From Brucella sp. 21LCYQ03 (GTDB lineage: Bacteria > Pseudomonadota > Alphaproteobacteria > Rhizobiales > Rhizobiaceae): a stretch of DNA of 64,000 bases. Below the pieces are notes generated by a model. It saw nothing but the letters and a program-made list of their open reading frames with translations. It was not told the DNA's origin and ran no database searches. The translations under genes were made by a program, and so were the position numbers. Location of the stretch: NCBI RefSeq assembly GCF_023554105.1, contig NZ_JAMJWE010000017.1:1-64000 (forward strand). The letters run 5' to 3'. Positions 27,016 to 64,000 of this stretch are shown here, one piece after another; the stretch's first letter is position 1, and each line of letters begins with the position of its first letter.

Positions 27016-27951
<936 letters not shown>

Positions 27952-53963: not shown

Positions 53964-54875
53964 ATGAGTGTCGCAATGAAGATGTTCCATGGTCTCTCCG
54001 CCTTTCCGCTCACGCCAATGGATGCCGAAGGCAATCTGATAGAGGACGCGCTAGAGGCTTTTCTTACGCGCATCCATGAGGCGAGAGCAGATTCGATTGG
54101 CCTGCTGGGAAGCACGGGTGGTTATGCCTTTCTCACACGAGAACAACGTCAGCATACGGTGAAGACTGCCGTTAATCACATTGGCGGGAAGATACCGCTG
54201 ATTGTTGGTGTTGGCGCGTTGCGCACTGATGAAGCGCAGGCACTCGCAAGAGATGCCGCAGATGCAGGCGCTGATGCATTATTGCTTGCGCCCGTTTCCT
54301 ATACGCCGCTCACGCAAGAAGAAGGATTTCAGCATTTCAAGGCAGTCGCGCGAGCCACTGATTTACCGCTCTGCATCTATAACAACCCTGGAACCACACG
54401 ATTTAATTTCAGTGATAAACTGATTGCTCGGCTGGCGGATATCGACAATATCTATGCTATCAAGATGCCCCTGCCCGCCGACGATAACTATGCGGCGGAA
54501 ATTGAGAAATTGCGTGCATCTACACCCGACGACTTTGCCATCGGCTATAGTGGCGATTGGGGTGCAAAAGATGCACTTCTTGCAGGTGCAGACGCTTTCT
54601 ACAGTGTAGCCGCCGGCCTGCTGCCAAAACAGTTTTTAGCCCTTGTACGCGCGTCACAAAGCGGCAACCAAGCAGAAGCTGAACGCATCAACTCAGCGTT
54701 TGAGCCGCTCTGGAGCCTGTTTAAAACCCATGGCAGCTTCCGCGTGATGTATGTCATCGCCGATCTACTAGGTCTTGCAAAAATCGAACCGCCGCGGCCC
54801 ATATTGCCGTTAACAACCGAGGTGCGTGTGCAGATTGAGGCCACTTTAAAAGCGCTGGAAGAATTCCCCTCGTAA
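53964..54875 (+). CDS. Dihydrodipicolinate synthase/N-acetylneuraminate lyase family protein
   Basis: A 303-residue class I aldolase-fold protein. LLGSTGGYAFLTREQ (about 47), IYNNPGTTRF (Tyr, about 138) and the Schiff-base Lys in IYAIKMPLP (about 167) are all present, so the enzyme should be active. The GSTGE motif of true DapA is GSTGG here and the Lys context differs, suggesting a substrate other than aspartate semialdehyde. Paired with a LysE exporter and near asd, but the role is undetermined. Confidence 0.8.
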   Translation: MSVAMKMFHGLSAFPLTPMDAEGNLIEDALEAFLTRIHEARADSIGLLGSTGGYAFLTREQRQHTVKTAVNHIGGKIPLIVGVGALRTDEAQALARDAADAGADALLLAPVSYTPLTQEEGFQHFKAVARATDLPLCIYNNPGTTRFNFSDKLIARLADIDNIYAIKMPLPADDNYAAEIEKLRASTPDDFAIGYSGDWGAKDALLAGADAFYSVAAGLLPKQFLALVRASQSGNQAEAERINSAFEPLWSLFKTHGSFRVMYVIADLLGLAKIEPPRPILPLTTEVRVQIEATLKALEEFPS

Positions 54876-54915: not shown

Positions 54916-55338
54916 TTATGCTACGCTCAGGCGGACATCAATATTGCCGCGCGTTGCATGGGAATAAGGACAGACGATGTGCGCAGCATTAACGAGCTCT
55001 TGCGCCTTGGCTTTTTCAACACCCGGCAGAGCGACTTCCAGAGCCACATCCAGACCAAAACCAGTGCCATCTTCACGCGGACCAATACCAACAGTGGCTG
55101 TAACCGTGCTGTCAGCAGAAATAGAAACCTTTTCCTTGGCTGCGACGAATTTCAGCGCACCGAGGAAACAAGCAGCATAACCAGATGCAAAGAGCTGCTC
55201 AGGATTGGTGCCTTCACCGCCCGAACCGCCAAGTTCCTTTGGAGTATCGAGAACGACGCTAAGACGGCCATCAGCGGTCTTGGCGCTGCCTGTGCGGCCG
55301 CCAGTTGCGGTAGACTGGGTCGTGTAAAGAATAGCCAT
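54916..55338 (-). CDS. ohr: Organic hydroperoxide resistance protein Ohr
   Basis: A 140-residue OsmC/Ohr-type thiol peroxidase starting MAILYTTQSTATGGRTG. The two redox cysteines are in GYAACFLGAL (about 60) and HIVCPYSHATRGN (about 124), with the conserved Arg/Glu region GGSGGEGTNPEQLFA. It reduces organic hydroperoxides using lipoylated proteins. It is divergent from its regulator ohrR with 156 bp between starts. Confidence 0.95.
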   Translation of the reverse strand: MAILYTTQSTATGGRTGSAKTADGRLSVVLDTPKELGGSGGEGTNPEQLFASGYAACFLGALKFVAAKEKVSISADSTVTATVGIGPREDGTGFGLDVALEVALPGVEKAKAQELVNAAHIVCPYSHATRGNIDVRLSVA

Positions 55339-55409
55339 TTAAATGTCTCCATTGGTATCGTTGAATTGTCTCCACAACCAAACTGGCAGATTTTTATATT
55401 GCGCACAAT

Positions 55410-55427
55410 CTAATTTTGCAAAATTAG
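55410..55427. promoter_or_regulatory. OhrR operator, site 1
   Basis: Perfect 18-bp palindrome CTAATTTTGCAAAATTAG in the ohr-ohrR intergenic region, about 72 bp before ohr. Confidence 0.65.
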
Positions 55428-55447
55428 TTTACACAAATATGTGATGC

Positions 55448-55460
55448 GCAATTCAATTGC
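55448..55460. promoter_or_regulatory. OhrR operator, site 2 (candidate)
   Basis: GCAATT-C-AATTGC, a 13-bp palindrome 34 bp before ohrR. Its AATT half-sites resemble those of site 1 and known MarR/OhrR targets. Confidence 0.45.
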
Positions 55461-55494
55461 ACCTCATGTAAAGTTCTGTCATGGAGCCTGTGCT

Positions 55495-55950
55495 ATGAAA
55501 GACGACAAACAAGAATCTCATCTCAATCTGTCGGATATGGTTTGTTTCGCGATCTATTCCACTGCGAATGCATTGACGCGCGCATACCAGCCAATTCTGA
55601 ACAAGCTAGAGCTAACCTATCCGCAGTTTCTGGTAATGGTTGTTTTATGGGAACAGGATAATTGCACGGTTTCGGAAATTGGCGCGAAACTCAATCTCGA
55701 TTCCGGCACGCTCACCCCGCTTTTAAAACGGCTTGAAGCAGCAGGCCATCTCGCGCGTCGCAGAGATCCAGAGGATGAGCGACAGGTCCGCATTACGCTG
55801 ACTGATGAAGGTCGTACTTTGCGGACAAAAGCCGCCGATATTCCAGAGCAAGTCTTCTGCGCGCTTGGTGAGCCTCTGAATGAATTGCAAAATTTGCGCG
55901 ATCGATTGCTGAATGTCCGCAATAATCTCAAAGACAGCATTTCAAAATAA
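55495..55950 (+). CDS. ohrR: MarR-family peroxide sensor OhrR
   Basis: A 151-residue MarR-type regulator starting MKDDKQESHLNLSDMVCFAIY. The reactive cysteine (about residue 17) sits in the conserved 'CFAIYS' context; organic peroxide oxidises it and releases DNA. The wing helix reads LNLDSGTLTPLLKRLEAAG and RRRDPEDERQV. ATG 55495 is used (TGGAG upstream) over an in-frame start 54 nt earlier that would overlap operator site 2. It represses ohr and itself. Confidence 0.92.
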   Translation: MKDDKQESHLNLSDMVCFAIYSTANALTRAYQPILNKLELTYPQFLVMVVLWEQDNCTVSEIGAKLNLDSGTLTPLLKRLEAAGHLARRRDPEDERQVRITLTDEGRTLRTKAADIPEQVFCALGEPLNELQNLRDRLLNVRNNLKDSISK

Positions 55951-57036: not shown

Positions 57037-57066
57037 TTACCTGTCTCCTGTCCTCTCCGCTTCCAT

Positions 57067-57092
57067 AAAAACCCGCGACCAGCGGGCCTTTT
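57067..57092 (-). terminator. Attenuator terminator of the asd leader
   Basis: On the minus strand CCCGC (57086-57082) pairs with GCGGG (57076-57072) around TGGTC, directly followed by TTTTT (57071-57067). The stem can extend by pairing AAAA (57092-57089) with TTTT across a GG bulge. It ends 31 nt before the asd ATG, with no gene end in front other than the leader peptide. Confidence 0.65.
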
Positions 57093-57137
57093 CCCTGGGC
57101 CGGACCCGGGGAGAGAGGGCGAGCAGGCCAAGGGGTC
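57082..57137 (-). promoter_or_regulatory. Alternative pairing regions 1-3 of the asd attenuator
   Basis: Minus-strand region 1 GACCC (57137-57133, overlapping the leader stop codon) complements region 2 GGGTC (57107-57103). Region 2 as CGGG-T-CC (57108-57102) also complements region 3 GGCCCG (57088-57083) with one bulge. Region 3 as CCCGC forms the 5' arm of the terminator. So 1:2+3:4 and 2:3 are mutually exclusive. The stems are short but GC-rich. Confidence 0.5.
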
Positions 57138-57264
57138 AGACCGTTTTGGTGGTCGTTTTAATGCAAGTGGCCATGGTAATTTTGGAAACGGACGCCATAG
57201 CGACACCGATGGCGTTGAGGCCATTCAGTCCGTACAGGCTATGTGATGCGCAGGAAGCGTTCAC
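57136..57264 (-). CDS. Leader peptide of asd, rich in Thr/Lys/Ile/Met (42 aa)
   Basis: A GTG-initiated 42-codon ORF with AAGGAG 7 nt upstream. The first 27 residues are unremarkable. The last 15 read KITMATCIKTTTKTV: six Thr, three Lys, two Ile and one Met, all products of the aspartate family whose common precursor is made by Asd. The stop codon lies within region 1 of the pairing set, and the T-run of the terminator is 65 nt further on, just before asd. This is the layout of a ribosome-mediated attenuator (compare the E. coli thr leader, rich in Thr and Ile). Stalling on these codons would free region 2 to form the antiterminator. ORF and pairings are seen in sequence; regulation is inference. 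Confidence 0.7.
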   Translation of the reverse strand: MNASCASHSLYGLNGLNAIGVAMASVSKITMATCIKTTTKTV

Positions 57265-57288
57265 GGGATTTCTCCTTTTCCGATTGCG

Positions 57289-57316
57289 CTTTTAAGCCCT
57301 TTGAGAAAAGAGTCAA
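57289..57316 (-). promoter_or_regulatory. Candidate promoter of the asd leader transcript
   Basis: On the minus strand TTGACT (57316-57311), 16 bp, TAAAAG (57294-57289), 24 bp before the leader GTG. It would place the leader ORF and attenuator in the 5' untranslated part of the asd mRNA. Confidence 0.5.
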
Positions 57317-57446
57317 TGTGTTTGCAAAGACAAGCGCAACAAAACTGCTCAAATATGCAGGAACAATGCCGCTTATTACCCTGACAGGCGCAATGAAAAG
57401 CCCGCGCAGCGGATGCGGCGCGGGCCTTACTCAAAATTGCGACGAA

Positions 57447-58685
57447 TTAATACAGCAGACGCGTGCGGATGGTGCCCGGAATTTCGCGCATCGCCTGAAG
57501 CACGTCCTCAGCGTGTTCCTCCATCGCATCGCCTTCAATCACCACATAACCCACTTCACCATCGGTCTGCAAAAACTGGCTGATGATGTTGATATTGTGC
57601 GACGAGAAAATATTGACGAGGCTGTTGAGAATGCCCGGACGGTTTTCGTGCACATGCATGAAGCGCGTACCGTTTGGACGTGCTGGCAACTGTACTTGTG
57701 GGAAGTTGACAGCACCGAGCGTCGAGCCGACATCGGAATATTCAACGAGCTTACGGGTCACTTCCATGCCAATGCGCTCTTGTGCTTCTGCAGTCGAACC
57801 ACCGATATGTGGGGTTAGAATAACATTCTCCAACCCCTGCAAAGGCGAAACAAACGGATCTTTGTTGGATGCAGGTTCAACCGGGAACACGTCGATTGCT
57901 GCACCAGCAAGATGGCCTTCTTTAAGCACTGTGGCCAGCGCTTCCAGATCAACCACATTTCCGCGCGCATTGTTTATGAGGAAGGCACCCTTCTTCATCT
58001 TGCGCAACTTGGCTTCGGTGATCATCTTGGCCGTCGATTTGTTCGATGGCACATGCAGGCTGATCACGTCGGAAATTTCAAGCAGTTCGTCAAGCGTCTC
58101 GGTCGGGATCACATTACCGTATTGCAGCTTGTCGGTCATGTCGAAATAGCGAACGGTCATGCCGAGGCTTTCGGCAAGGTTGCCGACCTGCGAACCGATA
58201 TTGCCGTAACCAATGATACCCAGCGTCTTACCGCGCACTTCGCGGCTACCTGTCGCACTTTTGTCCCAGCCCCCGGCATGCGCGGAGTTGGAACGCGGGA
58301 AAATCCGACGCATCAACATGATGATTTCGCCAATCACCAGTTCGGCCACCGAACGTGTATTGGAGAAAGGCGCATTGAAAACAGGGATACCGCGCTTGCG
58401 AGCAGCTTTCAGGTCAACCTGATTGGTACCAACCGAAAAACAACCAACTGCGATCAAGCGCTGTGCAGCTTCAAAAACCTCATCGGTGAGCTGCGTGCGC
58501 GAGCGGATGCCCACAATATGGGCCGACGCAATCGCCTCGATAAGCTCCGCCTTGTCCAATGCCTTTGGCAGATGGACAACATTGGTATAGCCAGACGACT
58601 TGAAATAATCGACAGCGGACTGATTGATGCCTTCGAGAAGAAGAACATTGATACGCTCACGCGCAAATGAAAGACGTGCGGTCAT
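57447..58685 (-). CDS. serA: D-3-phosphoglycerate dehydrogenase, short E. coli-type with ACT domain
   Basis: A 412-residue D-2-hydroxyacid dehydrogenase. NAD loop IIGYGNIGSQVG (about 158), 'RSRTQLT', NAPFSNTRSVAELVIGE, catalytic His in LTPHIGGSTAEAQ and the C-terminal ACT domain ('HVHENRPGILNSLVNIF', PGTIRTRLLY) align with E. coli SerA nearly end to end. First step of serine synthesis, normally feedback-inhibited by serine through the ACT domain. Start MTARLSFARERINVLL at 58685 by homology; its ribosome site is weak and an ATG 42 nt upstream is possible. It lies 183 nt before the asd leader. Confidence 0.93.
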   Translation of the reverse strand: MTARLSFARERINVLLLEGINQSAVDYFKSSGYTNVVHLPKALDKAELIEAIASAHIVGIRSRTQLTDEVFEAAQRLIAVGCFSVGTNQVDLKAARKRGIPVFNAPFSNTRSVAELVIGEIIMLMRRIFPRSNSAHAGGWDKSATGSREVRGKTLGIIGYGNIGSQVGNLAESLGMTVRYFDMTDKLQYGNVIPTETLDELLEISDVISLHVPSNKSTAKMITEAKLRKMKKGAFLINNARGNVVDLEALATVLKEGHLAGAAIDVFPVEPASNKDPFVSPLQGLENVILTPHIGGSTAEAQERIGMEVTRKLVEYSDVGSTLGAVNFPQVQLPARPNGTRFMHVHENRPGILNSLVNIFSSHNINIISQFLQTDGEVGYVVIEGDAMEEHAEDVLQAMREIPGTIRTRLLY

Positions 58686-58933: not shown

Positions 58934-61900
58934 AAAAACGCCCGGCTTATGATCCGGGCGTTTTGAATTTTAGTTTCTTTATTTTCACCAATTGACTTTG
59001 AAGCCGATGTTTCCTTTGATTTTATAGCTATCGGCGAAATGGTTGAGTGCGGTTCCGACGGAGCCTTCGCCATAGAATACATATTTGCCGTCAGCCCATG
59101 CATAAGCACCACCTGCACCGATGCCACCCCATGTATCATCGCTGTCTGTCGCCATATGTGTACCCGCGTAATTGATGCGCGCGTCGCCCATAAGCTCCTG
59201 ATAAAGATTGGCAATACCATAGAGAGATGTATTGACCATTCGACCGTCATTGCCTTTCCAGCTGTTGGCGTAGTTGGCGGCAAGGCCGAGCCGGGCAGTC
59301 AGGCTATCACTGCTTCGATTAGAAATGCGTGCACCATACGTATCGCTAAACGTGTCGAAATCTACTGATGACCACATCAATTGCGCCTGTGGCGTGAGTG
59401 ACCAGTTTTGGTTCATCGCAAAGCGTTGACCGGCTTCGATGCTGAGGGCGTAACCGATGCCCTTATTGCCGTTCTTGAGGGTCGGGTTTGCGGCATCAAC
59501 ATCAAGATCGCTGTCATACCAGTTCACCTGTGCCTGTCCATCGAGATAGAAGCCGGACGTGCCATACCAAGTGGCCGTTGCCCCCAGTCCCCATCCTTGC
59601 GTGTCGATCGTACCGGAACCATCTCCAGTGCGGTTATCAACATCTGAACGCGCATTGCCATACTGCCCGGTAATACCAGCAAACAGCTTGCCATTCTCAT
59701 TCTCATAGAACTGACCATCAACACCCGCCTGCATAATGAGCGTGTTGATGTCCTGATGCAGATCACCGGCCGTAGAGCGGTTTTCCTGACGGTTATGCGC
59801 GCCTTCAATGCGGCCCCATATGGCCTTGTTATCGCTTTCACCTGAACGGGCACCTGAACTGGCACCTGAACCAGCCTGATCAGCACCACCCAGATAACGC
59901 TGGCCGACGCGCTGTTGCAATGTTGGCAGTGCATTCAAAGCTTGCAGTGTTGACGTATAGGATTCATAGACAGGAGCAGCCGCACTGTAACGACCAGGAG
60001 CAGGATCGGGATTAGGCCCTGGTGCGGGTGGTGTCGGACATGTGTTCGTCGTCTGGCAATCCGGATCAACCGGAGGCACCGGAGTATTGTTGCTGCTGAC
60101 CAGATACCAGTTGCCGTCATTGGGCGTATTCGTGCCACCCTTTTGCAGCGTGTAGGCGTAAGCAGTATTGGTCATGATGGCTTGTTGGCCATCCTTGGTG
60201 ACATAATCGCCATTGAGGGTGAACGCGCCAAGAGAGTTGCCGCCAACGCTGACAATCTCGATACCATTATTGGTTTTAGCGCCAAATCCATCGCGGTTTG
60301 TGATGTCGATATGAGTGCTGCCTGATGTGCTGCCACCCACATTCAACCGATCTGCCACCGAATTGTCATCACCAAACACGGCAGACATATGCAGTGTGCC
60401 GCCATTGCCGTTATAATCACCTGAGACGTTAAGGACAGTCGCGTTTATCCCACCGAAGAAGACATTACCGGCATTGGAAAGCCCCGCCATATTGGTCGCA
60501 AAACCTTCGAGCTGAAGTGATGCTCCGCTAGCAACGTTAAAGGTAGACGCGCTAGAGAAGCCACCGGCTGCCCCCTGGACCAAAGCACCTTCGTTGATCG
60601 CAGTAACCCCCGAATAATCATTGGCTCCATAAAGAACCAGATCGCCGTCATTGGTCTTGGTAATCCCACCTGTGCCGGAAATCTTGCCGGAGAAATCACC
60701 ATGCAGGTTCTGATTAAGCGTTAGCGTGCCGGAGCCAAGATTGATCGCCCCATCGCCTGTTTTACCACCCAAAAGACTACCAACGCTTTGATTGAGGTTG
60801 GCAAGATCAAGCCTCGCACCACCATTGACCATGACATTGCCTGAACCAAAAGCATTGTCGGCAATACCCGCCTTCGCGGTTCCGCCTTTGACCGTTAGCC
60901 CACCGGAAAACGTGTTGTTTCCTGCAAAGGTGGTTGTGCTATTACCGTCCTTGGTTACAGCACCAATACCGCTCACCTTGTTCGCCAGATTAAAATCCTG
61001 ATCCTTGTTGATCAGCAGACCACTTTGGCCAAACCTGCTGCTCGCCAGAACAATCTCGGCACTGTTGGCGATGCTGCCATTACCGCTCAACTCCAACGTC
61101 CCGTCTTTGACGGTTGTCGTGCCGCTATAGATATTCTGACCCGTCAGGTTGAGGGTTCCATAGTTCACTTTGGTAAAGCCATTCTGGCCCTCAAGCACAG
61201 AAGCAATGGTTGCAACATAGCTCGCACTATCCTGCGTACCGTCACCAACATTAATTTGGTTATCCGCCCCACCCAGCGTAATTGCGCCGCCCGTAACCGT
61301 GTAACCATCAACGAAGAACTGCAAGCCCTTAACGGTAGGCTTAAAATTCGTGGCAACAGTCACCGTGCCAGCCGTTCCTTCAAAAATTGCGAATTGGTTG
61401 TTATCCCATTTTTTGTTGAAACTCCCGTCTTGATCCGTCCAGTTGGCATTACTTGCATCCCAGGTACCATCACCACCATCAACGAGATTATTATCGTGTT
61501 TACTCGTATCCTGGCCATCCCAAAAGCTCAGTATAGCGCCTGCACTATTAACCAGATTGACCTGATGGGGGGTGCTTGTCAGAATACTCCAGCCCGTGTC
61601 ACCATTTGGCACAGTGCCAAGGGATAGTGTATTGTCGGTCAATGTCCCGCCATATTCAAAAATACGATAACGACCGGGACCGAAACCACCTGCATCCGTG
61701 ATATTCAATGTGCCTGCAAGCGTAAGGTTACCTTTTACATCAAACAAACCACTGGCGTTAGGCGCACCCAGGTCGACGCTGACAATGCTACCGGTATTGA
61801 GCGTCAAGTCTTTGTCAAATGTAAGCTTCTGGCCGCTTTGAGCGAAGAGGGTACCGCCTGTCGCAATATCCGTCGTGTCACCAATCGTGCCATGCCCCCC

Positions 61901-62867
61901 AAGTGATCCGCCGGACGCAACATGAACTGCCCCGGCACCATTACCGAGTTTGCCGCCATCAAGACGTAAAGAACCCTGACTGACAGTCGTGTTTCCCTGG
62001 TAGCCGCTGCTATCACCCGTTAAAGCCAGCGTACCAGCGCCAGTTTTGGTCAGAGCGCCTGAACCGGTAAAGACATTGGATAAGGCAAAATGATTGTTTG
62101 CGTCGTCGATATCGAAACTGCCGCCATGCGCGCCCCAGACGATTTGCTTTGTAGTATTTGTAAAATGCGTCCCCATAATTTGCAGTGTGCCACCGTCAAA
62201 ATTAAGCGGACCTGTTCCCAGATTCTCATCTTGTTCTGCTGAAATTACACCGGCATTGAGAGATGTGCCGCCACTGTAACCATTGTTACCCGAAAGCGTC
62301 AGCGTACCAGCACCGTTCTGCGTGAGACTGCCCGTACCGCTAATGACACTGGCTAATGCCGTTGCACCAATATTATCAACCACAAGGTTGCCACCATTCA
62401 GAGCGATGGCGTTCGTTATTGAACCATCCGTGACGCCATCACCGAGCTGCAATATCCCGCCCGAAACCGTTGTTCCGCCGGTATACGTATTGGCTGCCGT
62501 CATGATCAGCGTGCCGTCACCCGATTTGGTCAAGCTGCCTGTGGCCTTTAACGCATTTTTGAAAATACCACCAAATGTAGCTGTTTTGTTTGCATCAACT
62601 GAAATTGTGCCACCATGGGATGTCAACAACACGGCCCGGCTCGAATTCATCGTATTGGTAAGGTGCAACGTGCCCGTATCAAAGTTCAGCGCACCCGATG
62701 CATCACCCAGATTTGCATCAGACGCGACCTGAAGCGTCCCTCCATTGAGGTAGGTACCACCCTTATAAAGATTGTCACCACTCAAAACCAGTGTGCCAGC
62801 GCCAAGCTTCGTCAGAGAACCACCCGCGCTAAGCTTCTGATCAACCGTGAATGTGTTACCAGAATCA
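58934..62867 (-). repeat. Long direct repeat, copy 2 (about 3.93 kb)
   Basis: Identical by eye and by all-frame translation to 13920-17853. Same orientation, so the two copies flank 41 kb of unique sequence including asd, serA, leuD and typA. The left edge is sharp at AAAAACGCCC; the right edge ends inside the passenger-coding region, where the codons for DSGNTFTVDQ are still shared. Confidence 0.92.
58935..58964 (-). terminator. Terminator of autotransporter gene 2
   Basis: Same hairpin as at 13921-13950 (AAAACGCCCGG / CCGGGCGTTTT), 20 nt past the stop codon. Confidence 0.85.
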
Positions 62868-64000
62868 ACGATGTCAAAGCCGCCGCCTTCACTGAACAAT
62901 TGAATAGTCGCCGCAGTTGAATGCATCGTCGTACCGGTGACCTGCAATATGCCGCCCCCGAACTCAATACGATGTGCATTACCGCCTCCGAGATGACTAT
63001 CTGCATTAACGGAAAGTTCCCCACCTTTGAGATACGTGATGGCGGCGTGAGTCGTCCCATTGAGAACGAGAACACCATCGCCTATCTTGTAGAGAGTAGC
63101 GTCTCCAGTAATGCTTGCGCCGTAATTAATTGTGTGACCATTGGTATCAAAACTACCGCCCAGCCCGTTAAGTTCAAGTGGAACATCAACGTTCAAAGCT
63201 TTCGTACCAGCTTGAATTATACCACCATTCATGGTGATTTTGCCTTGGACAAATGAACCTGCGCTCACATCCGCCGTGGGTGTCCAGATGCCCTGTTGAT
63301 TTAATTTTAATACAACATTGCCATTGTGAGATGTTACATCTCCGGTCCAATGAGATTGACCAGCAATCGTCATTTGGGCAGACGCGAACTGTTCCGGATG
63401 CTCACCTGTCACTGAAGAGGCCACGAAAAGATCGCCTGCCCAAGTGGTCGTGCCATCCATTGTGTATGTCAGCAAATTTTTGGCGGTAAACTTTCCACTG
63501 TCATCCACGTCATCCACATAGATGCCACCACCAAGAGTGGAATCCGTTGCGTGAAATATAAGCGTCGCCCCCTCCGGATCGTCATATGGGTGCGCATCTC
63601 CTGGAGAAATTGGCAGTTCAGTCGTCTTATTGATATAGATAAGTGAGCGATCAGCGATCGCGGAATTGCCTGGCGCAACCAATTTGGACCCATTCGTGAC
63701 ATTCACCGTTGCAAAGGTTGCATCTATGTCAAAAAGCGAAACATACTTTCCCGAATGAGCCTCAGTAAAGTTAACCTGTACTTTGTTGAGATCGAATATA
63801 TTATCAGCAAAAGTGGCAGGAGTAGGATCCTTGTCGTTTATACTTGTGGCAAATGGGGTGATCCCGCTCAAAAATACGGAAGCGCGCGAGGCCGCACTTC
63901 CCTGCATATCGAGGTTCATGGTGGTATTGGTCAGAGCTGCATGTGCATGCTGATTAAGCGACACCACACCCCACGGGCCTGAAGGACCATCATCTTTCAT
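58985..64000 (-). CDS. Second large autotransporter, N-terminus outside the window
   Basis: At least 1671 residues; the frame is open to the window edge, so start and signal peptide are missing (the Met at 64000 is internal). The C-terminal 1294 residues, covering distal passenger, Pro-rich linker and beta-barrel ending KVNW, are identical to autotransporter 1. The visible unique part (about 377 residues, 62868-64000) contains different beta-helical sequence (HGNVVLKLNQQG, ITGDATLYKIGDG, MTIAGQSHWTGDV). Just above the junction the two proteins still share a loose 'TGTT...GGGFDI' pattern typical of PATR repeats. Outer-membrane adhesin with an alternative passenger tip. Confidence 0.88.
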   Translation of the reverse strand: MKDDGPSGPWGVVSLNQHAHAALTNTTMNLDMQGSAASRASVFLSGITPFATSINDKDPTPATFADNIFDLNKVQVNFTEAHSGKYVSLFDIDATFATVNVTNGSKLVAPGNSAIADRSLIYINKTTELPISPGDAHPYDDPEGATLIFHATDSTLGGGIYVDDVDDSGKFTAKNLLTYTMDGTTTWAGDLFVASSVTGEHPEQFASAQMTIAGQSHWTGDVTSHNGNVVLKLNQQGIWTPTADVSAGSFVQGKITMNGGIIQAGTKALNVDVPLELNGLGGSFDTNGHTINYGASITGDATLYKIGDGVLVLNGTTHAAITYLKGGELSVNADSHLGGGNAHRIEFGGGILQVTGTTMHSTAATIQLFSEGGGFDIVDSGNTFTVDQKLSAGGSLTKLGAGTLVLSGDNLYKGGTYLNGGTLQVASDANLGDASGALNFDTGTLHLTNTMNSSRAVLLTSHGGTISVDANKTATFGGIFKNALKATGSLTKSGDGTLIMTAANTYTGGTTVSGGILQLGDGVTDGSITNAIALNGGNLVVDNIGATALASVISGTGSLTQNGAGTLTLSGNNGYSGGTSLNAGVISAEQDENLGTGPLNFDGGTLQIMGTHFTNTTKQIVWGAHGGSFDIDDANNHFALSNVFTGSGALTKTGAGTLALTGDSSGYQGNTTVSQGSLRLDGGKLGNGAGAVHVASGGSLGGHGTIGDTTDIATGGTLFAQSGQKLTFDKDLTLNTGSIVSVDLGAPNASGLFDVKGNLTLAGTLNITDAGGFGPGRYRIFEYGGTLTDNTLSLGTVPNGDTGWSILTSTPHQVNLVNSAGAILSFWDGQDTSKHDNNLVDGGDGTWDASNANWTDQDGSFNKKWDNNQFAIFEGTAGTVTVATNFKPTVKGLQFFVDGYTVTGGAITLGGADNQINVGDGTQDSASYVATIASVLEGQNGFTKVNYGTLNLTGQNIYSGTTTVKDGTLELSGNGSIANSAEIVLASSRFGQSGLLINKDQDFNLANKVSGIGAVTKDGNSTTTFAGNNTFSGGLTVKGGTAKAGIADNAFGSGNVMVNGGARLDLANLNQSVGSLLGGKTGDGAINLGSGTLTLNQNLHGDFSGKISGTGGITKTNDGDLVLYGANDYSGVTAINEGALVQGAAGGFSSASTFNVASGASLQLEGFATNMAGLSNAGNVFFGGINATVLNVSGDYNGNGGTLHMSAVFGDDNSVADRLNVGGSTSGSTHIDITNRDGFGAKTNNGIEIVSVGGNSLGAFTLNGDYVTKDGQQAIMTNTAYAYTLQKGGTNTPNDGNWYLVSSNNTPVPPVDPDCQTTNTCPTPPAPGPNPDPAPGRYSAAAPVYESYTSTLQALNALPTLQQRVGQRYLGGADQAGSGASSGARSGESDNKAIWGRIEGAHNRQENRSTAGDLHQDINTLIMQAGVDGQFYENENGKLFAGITGQYGNARSDVDNRTGDGSGTIDTQGWGLGATATWYGTSGFYLDGQAQVNWYDSDLDVDAANPTLKNGNKGIGYALSIEAGQRFAMNQNWSLTPQAQLMWSSVDFDTFSDTYGARISNRSSDSLTARLGLAANYANSWKGNDGRMVNTSLYGIANLYQELMGDARINYAGTHMATDSDDTWGGIGAGGAYAWADGKYVFYGEGSVGTALNHFADSYKIKGNIGFKVNW

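Follow-up and report, generated by a model that had tools for sequence, protein, structure and literature searches.

A conserved threonine/lysine leader peptide and a probable attenuator upstream of asd in Rhizobiales

We analysed a stretch of 64,000 nucleotides from contig NZ_JAMJWE010000017.1 of Brucella sp. 21LCYQ03 (hereafter the window), in which the gene asd, encoding aspartate-semialdehyde dehydrogenase, is preceded on the minus strand by a short leader open reading frame (ORF) whose last codons specify mainly threonine and lysine. A leader of this kind recurs in the family of the window, Rhizobiaceae, and in 21 of the 34 further families sampled from its order, Rhizobiales. Together with the attenuator-like RNA that follows it, the leader would form a ribosome-mediated attenuator of asd sensing threonine and lysine, probably acting at the asd ribosome site; we assign this reading a probability of about 0.65. 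An aspartate-family leader peptide with an attenuator had been proposed here from the sequence of the window (the original prediction). That proposal stands, with two corrections, to the amino acids sensed and to the nature of the RNA switch, and with one partial precedent in the literature.

The leader peptide and its distribution

The leader has 42 codons and a ribosome site of its own, as predicted. Its final 15 codons, KITMATCIKTTTKTV, comprise six threonine, three lysine, two isoleucine and one methionine codons (12 of 15) and are followed by the stop codon. The ORF and its ribosome site are placed between a promoter-like site and a biosynthetic gene, which is the arrangement of an attenuator.

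The regions upstream of asd were collected by three routes: 29 loci by DNA match (L003-L031), which constitute a biased set, 80 named loci by the Asd protein alone (L062-L141), and samples of the order and of the class, also by the Asd protein. The order sample contained 90 loci from 241 genomes with an Asd match, the first 30 being the best Asd matches and the remainder chosen by family, none by leader. The other genomes of the class gave 67 loci out of 169 with an Asd match, mostly the better matches. After removal of duplicates, 263 distinct loci were scored, the named loci decreasing from 80 to 77 (three duplicates). The score was the number of threonine plus lysine codons among the last 15 codons of short ORFs ending 55-220 nt before asd, with a threshold of at least 7. 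A filter keeping only the longest start of each ORF, which loses true leaders, was replaced in the final scan.

Within the window's family, 111 of 116 loci reached the threshold, versus 4 of 6,960 dinucleotide shuffles; by route, the counts were 29/29 for the DNA-chosen loci, 73/77 for the named loci and 9/10 for the order sample (window included). Among the loci from the 34 other families of the order it was reached by 48 of 80, versus 2 of 4,800 shuffles, and elsewhere in the class by 4 of 67 (L207, L228, L261 and L264), versus 1 of 4,020. All shuffles combined, 7 of 15,780 scored this high. Counting the window's own family, 22 of 35 families have at least one threonine/lysine leader locus. 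The other 32 of the 80 loci scored below 7, and no locus reached 7 in 13 of the 34 sampled families (f2, f7, f8, f18, f21, f30-f35, f38 and f50). In a small 1.5 Mb genome of the window's family (L157), asd is present and the leader absent. As judged from these sequence comparisons, the leader is real, beyond chance.

DNA matches to the leader region were found in 77 of 199 genomes of the family. A covariance model, for which the window was combined with 46 of the 76 named leader loci, gave matches in 153 of the 199 at E ≤0.01, a single match in all but about 10; that the match adjoins asd was confirmed in five genomes only (G000, G029, G073, G128 and G155). The genome of the window itself has one strong place for this model, at asd (3.2e-24), the next being at 0.72, and plasmid records gave no match. 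For hom, lysC, thrC and dapA of the same genome, no threonine/lysine leader was found on the coding strand of the loci scanned (best score 4 of 15), in a scan for which the asd locus (L273), lying on the other strand, is not a valid positive control. Two dapA-like genes share the window with asd, at 53964-54875 and 27082-27921 (144 and 84.8 bits, under the dapA cut-off of 206); the match exceeding that cut-off is located elsewhere in the genome. The leader element escapes the libraries tried: NCBIfam gave no match for two leader peptides, and Rfam none at gathering scores within the window, the threonine leader RF00506 scoring 13.5 bits at 57393-57450 with a cut-off of 55.

The amino acids proposed as sensed had been threonine, lysine, isoleucine and methionine, and conservation of their codons in relatives had been suggested as a check. 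Comparison with shuffles upheld the first two and gave no enrichment of the others. In the window's family, threonine had z=57.7, lysine 25.7, valine 5.2, isoleucine 0.6 and methionine -4.4; in the other families of the order, threonine had z=43.9, lysine 18.4, alanine 2.9, methionine 1.0 and isoleucine 0.7. Two Bartonella loci (L110 and L124) retain a threonine/lysine/isoleucine leader ending in HKKTTKKII. Across the leaders as a class, the residues read would be threonine and lysine, and what is conserved, as amino acids, is a codon cluster for these two end products of the pathway, as in an attenuator. A threonine/lysine sensor is thereby well supported at the level of codon content. In the tails of the 76 named leaders, lysine is encoded by 205 AAA and 25 AAG codons, versus 114 AAA and 1,714 AAG in the first 340 codons of asd at the 80 named loci. 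This preference for AAA may reflect either the sensing of a specific tRNA or the need for an A-rich loop.

RNA segments after the leader and the proposed switch

The RNA between the leader and asd contains segment W, directly after the stop codon, followed by X, Y and Z, the last beside the asd ribosome site (Table 1). For segments after the leader and before asd, duplex energies (mean z -1.4) are uninformative owing to the pyrimidine/purine composition of these segments, and partner permutation was therefore adopted. Both X:Y and X:Z exceeded partner-permuted pairs (median p 0.000; spacing limits removed 5 of 166 leader loci). Helix P1 (X:Z) covaries, with a permutation value of 1 of 2000 in the other families; hairpin P2 (X:Y) has zero double changes in 28 family sequences. 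Two specific partners of X, one local (Y) and one next to the asd ribosome site (Z), are supported by these comparisons. Competing downstream structures, as an attenuator has, are provided by X:Y and X:Z, which in the window's family hardly overlap. For W:Y, the median p was 0.085 across 20 families. Pairing of W or X with the Shine-Dalgarno sequence as a specific helix was rejected by partner permutation (p 0.867 and 0.770, respectively). Upstream, in hairpin P0, one pair followed through 47 sequences is C:G in 21, G:C in 21, A:U in 1 and unpaired in 4.

In attenuators of this type, a terminating ribosome shields about ten nt past the stop codon, so the segment covered here would be W. When the RNA was cut before Z, W outpaired X on the stretch 28-58 nt past the stop codon (Y and, where near, part of P3) in 28 of 33 Rhizobium-type loci of the family, 47 of the 78 other family loci and 31 of 48 loci from other families; masking W passed this stretch to X. 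From this pairing and its transfer we infer the two states of the switch and its direction. If threonyl- or lysyl-tRNA were scarce, the ribosome would stall on the threonine/lysine codons and leave W free; W would pair with Y, trapping X in the W:Y loop, and the asd ribosome site would be open. If threonine and lysine were both ample, the ribosome would reach the stop codon and cover W, so that X would pair with Y, with Z or with both, closing the asd ribosome site. Folding predicts that in the window's clade a masked W also favours hairpin P3 and its five-T run, and termination may be added.

Several results weigh against this direction. In full-length equilibrium folding, opening the ribosome site cost more energy when W was free (8.77 vs 7.58 kcal/mol), and the same was true in the other families (6.86 vs 5.98 kcal/mol); spacing limits removed 7 of the 166 leader loci from this accessibility folding and from the terminator scan described below. 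In the full window RNA, X:Z had a probability of 0.88-0.99 in all states and W:Y of 0.0, and even in window RNA truncated at the T run, with W free, W:Y reached just 0.08-0.17. W:Y is also poorly supported in the family alignment. Given these results, the model requires co-transcriptional order, or another direction.

The terminator and alternative explanations

The segments on which the original prediction built its switch, GACCC (57137-57133), GGGTC (57107-57103) and GGCCCG (57088-57083), are all found in the sequence, as are the hairpin at 57087-57071 and the five-T run at 57071-57067. The antiterminator GGGTC:GGCCCG and the stem GACCC:GGGTC failed in both analyses: their covariation did not exceed that of shuffles in 28 sequences, and their probability was 0.0 wherever scorable in the folded window RNA. 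The T-run terminator is present in the window and possible in its clade, but falls as a general output. Between leader and asd, a T run preceded by a G+C hairpin was found at 21 of the 78 non-Rhizobium loci of the family (window included), at none of the 33 Rhizobium-type loci and at none of the 48 from other families; among these 78, 33 and 48 loci there is no conserved intrinsic terminator before asd of the kind that trp/thr-type attenuators have. A simple terminator scan of the minus strand did not list P3, presumably because its stem runs into the T run.

Classical transcription attenuation, with P3 and the T run as terminator and the stop-codon region plus W, paired to the 3' arm of P3, as antiterminator, is an alternative that we regard as unlikely. 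That competing fold is the one predicted in the window, where, for RNA ending at the T run, the probability of P3 rose from 0.09-0.18 with W free to 0.76-0.88 with W removed; this shift makes transcription attenuation physically plausible there, though not through the stems of the original prediction. Masking of W had similar effects in the near relatives L062 and L063 (both 0.57 to 0.96) and L065 (0.26 to 0.83), and over 106 family loci the P3 probability rose from 0.55 to 0.74, with an increase above 0.3 in 30 and a fall in 3. By contrast, P3 barely moved in the relatives L064 and L083 (0.88 and 0.92 to 0.96) and was unaltered in other families (0.62 and 0.63), and the terminator-like sites are confined to the 21 loci given above. 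When real W was compared with shuffled W, in RNA from the stop codon on, the P3 probability was 0.48 vs 0.58 at the non-Rhizobium loci of the family (lower in 32 and higher in 17 of 78), 0.91 vs 0.77 in the Rhizobium type and 0.84 vs 0.74 in the window itself, the last contrary to an anti-P3 role. W as a general anti-P3 element was rejected on this comparison. Outside the order, within the same class, L261 (363-540) and L264 carry a threonine/lysine leader and, behind it, GGCCGC..GCGGCC with a long T run, the textbook layout of a terminator. In L264 the fold shifts as expected on masking of W, following the logic of transcription attenuation; in L261 both states contain the terminator stem.

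The leader ORF might instead chiefly keep the RNA open or supply ribosomes to asd, its threonine and lysine codons being A/C-rich unstructured RNA and not sensors. The AAA bias of the tails, contrary to the use of AAG in asd, suggests that nucleotide content may matter, but threonine is conserved while the third base of its codons varies, and asparagine and glutamine, whose codons would yield similar RNA, are under-represented in the tails (z -5.0 and -8.5 in the family, -2.4 and -2.1 in other families). Threonine and lysine are, moreover, end products of the pathway that requires the enzyme encoded downstream, and we hold this explanation to be improbable. Less probable still would be a ligand-binding riboswitch with an incidental ORF: the 76 named loci are predicted to adopt a branched fold (P1, P2 and P3), but the feature common to the families is the peptide content, the window has no Rfam match at gathering scores, and no lysine riboswitch is among the seven sub-threshold Rfam matches near asd. 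Some pairing arises automatically between the pyrimidine-rich region after the leader and the purine-rich ribosome site, as the duplex energies indicate, but the shuffle and partner-permutation controls leave hardly any room for chance or composition, which we hold to be excluded for the leader and for X:Z.

Beyond the attenuator reading, we put forward, tentatively and with more doubt than confidence, an order-wide attenuator that would read threonine and lysine jointly at the branch-point gene asd, lysine through the disfavoured codon AAA, its output having moved from a terminator (as in L261 and L264, and partly in the window's clade) to occlusion of the ribosome site in most Rhizobiales. 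The product of asd supplies the synthesis of lysine, threonine, methionine and cell-wall diaminopimelate. If joint reading of threonine and lysine is true, a single branch-point gene would integrate two end products with no repressor involved, and this in an order to which nitrogen-fixing symbionts as well as several pathogens belong. The leaders would also constitute a natural series, the same sensor with differing outputs (terminator or ribosome site), along which the evolution of an attenuator could be traced.

Genomic setting and comparison with known systems

On the minus strand, serA is followed by a terminator-like hairpin with a T run (57413-57401), the leader region and asd. The closest named relatives of Asd are those of Brucella/Ochrobactrum (L062-L065, 96-97% identity). 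The promoter candidate proposed just upstream of the leader gained support from recurrence: of the 113 family loci with a leader, 112 had TTGAC 100-260 nt upstream of the leader's end (a raw count, with no shuffle baseline), in one of which (L009) it falls within the leader itself, and at the narrower distance of 161-190 nt in 101 of 113. Adjoining asd, at 54916-55950, are a gene of the ohr family (organic hydroperoxide) and, in the opposite orientation, one of MarR type closest to OhrR. A 1671-aa open frame of repeated glycine-rich units, autotransporter-like by appearance, occupies 58985-64000 and runs into the window edge.

Table 1. Features of the asd leader region and neighbouring genes in the window
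Feature	Coordinates	Strand	Basis or remark
serA	58766-57447	-	NF008759, 640.8 bits
Promoter-like site: TTGACT (57316-57311), 16-nt spacer, TAAAAG (57294-57289)	57289..57316	-	sequence and family recurrence
Leader ribosome site, AGGAG	57272..57276	-	sequence; 7 nt ahead of the GTG start
Leader ORF, 42 codons, GTG start, Thr/Lys-rich tail 57183-57139	57136..57264	-	ORF list and conservation across loci
Hairpin P0 across the final Thr/Lys codons (GACC 57154-57151 paired to GGTC 57142-57139)	57139..57154	-	covariation
Segment W, immediately 3' of the leader stop codon, contains CCCTTGGCC	57126..57135	-	can pair with Y; in window folding, with the P3 3' arm
Segment X, pyrimidine, CCTCTCTCCCCG	57107..57118	-	forms hairpin P2 with Y and helix P1 with Z
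Segment Y, GGCCCAGGG, 3' side of hairpin P2	57093..57101	-	partner permutation
Hairpin P3 (GCCCGC/GCGGGT) and five-T run	57067..57087	-	terminator-like, in part of the family only
Segment Z, purine, GAGAGG, -21 to -16 from the asd ATG	57052..57057	-	partner of X; P1 covariation
asd ribosome site, AGGAG	57045..57049	-	sequence
asd, aspartate-semialdehyde dehydrogenase, 344 aa	56002..57036	-	profile matches NF011456 (530.5 bits) and TIGR01296 (474 bits, cut-off 324.2)

The thrABC leader of enteric bacteria contains threonine and isoleucine codons, with a terminator before thrA. The asd element resembles this leader (RF00506) in that codons for pathway products stand in a leader peptide and the position of the ribosome would set the downstream fold; it differs in its codons (threonine and lysine), in its gene, in having a non-conserved terminator and in lacking an Rfam match above the cut-off. 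Translational attenuators of the erm type depend on stalling caused by a drug. With these the proposed switch shares its output, access to a downstream ribosome site, whereas its trigger would be uncharged tRNA. Within the same order, the trp attenuator rnTrpL/peTrpL of Sinorhizobium meliloti, as presented in the available part of PMC10117765, is also a leader-peptide attenuator, for another amino acid and gene.

The original prediction knew of no multi-amino-acid leader described for asd in Rhizobiales. This holds except for Sinorhizobium: according to the available part of PMC10117765 (2023), the small ORF SEP5 of S. meliloti 2011 has six threonine and three lysine codons near its 3' end and is located in the 5' untranslated region of a gene termed aspartate dehydrogenase by the authors. 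Its translation was demonstrated there by Ribo-seq and Western blot, it was suggested to be a possible leader peptide, and it was described as conserved in Sinorhizobium only. That paper was the only one found to describe such an asd leader, in a search that mostly did not cover subscription papers, so that an earlier mention (Vitreschak 2004, FEMS) is possible; the term 'asd' occurs 0 times in PMC2573895 and PMC1273637 by term search. We infer that SEP5 is the same element as the asd leader, the named loci including no Sinorhizobium-titled record. Both are small ORFs rich in threonine and lysine codons, to which the present analysis adds the RNA fold and the order-wide distribution. New, as far as the literature found shows, are the occurrence in 22 of 35 families of the order, the reading of threonine and lysine rather than isoleucine and methionine, the pair of partners of X, the limited spread of the terminator and the preference for AAA.
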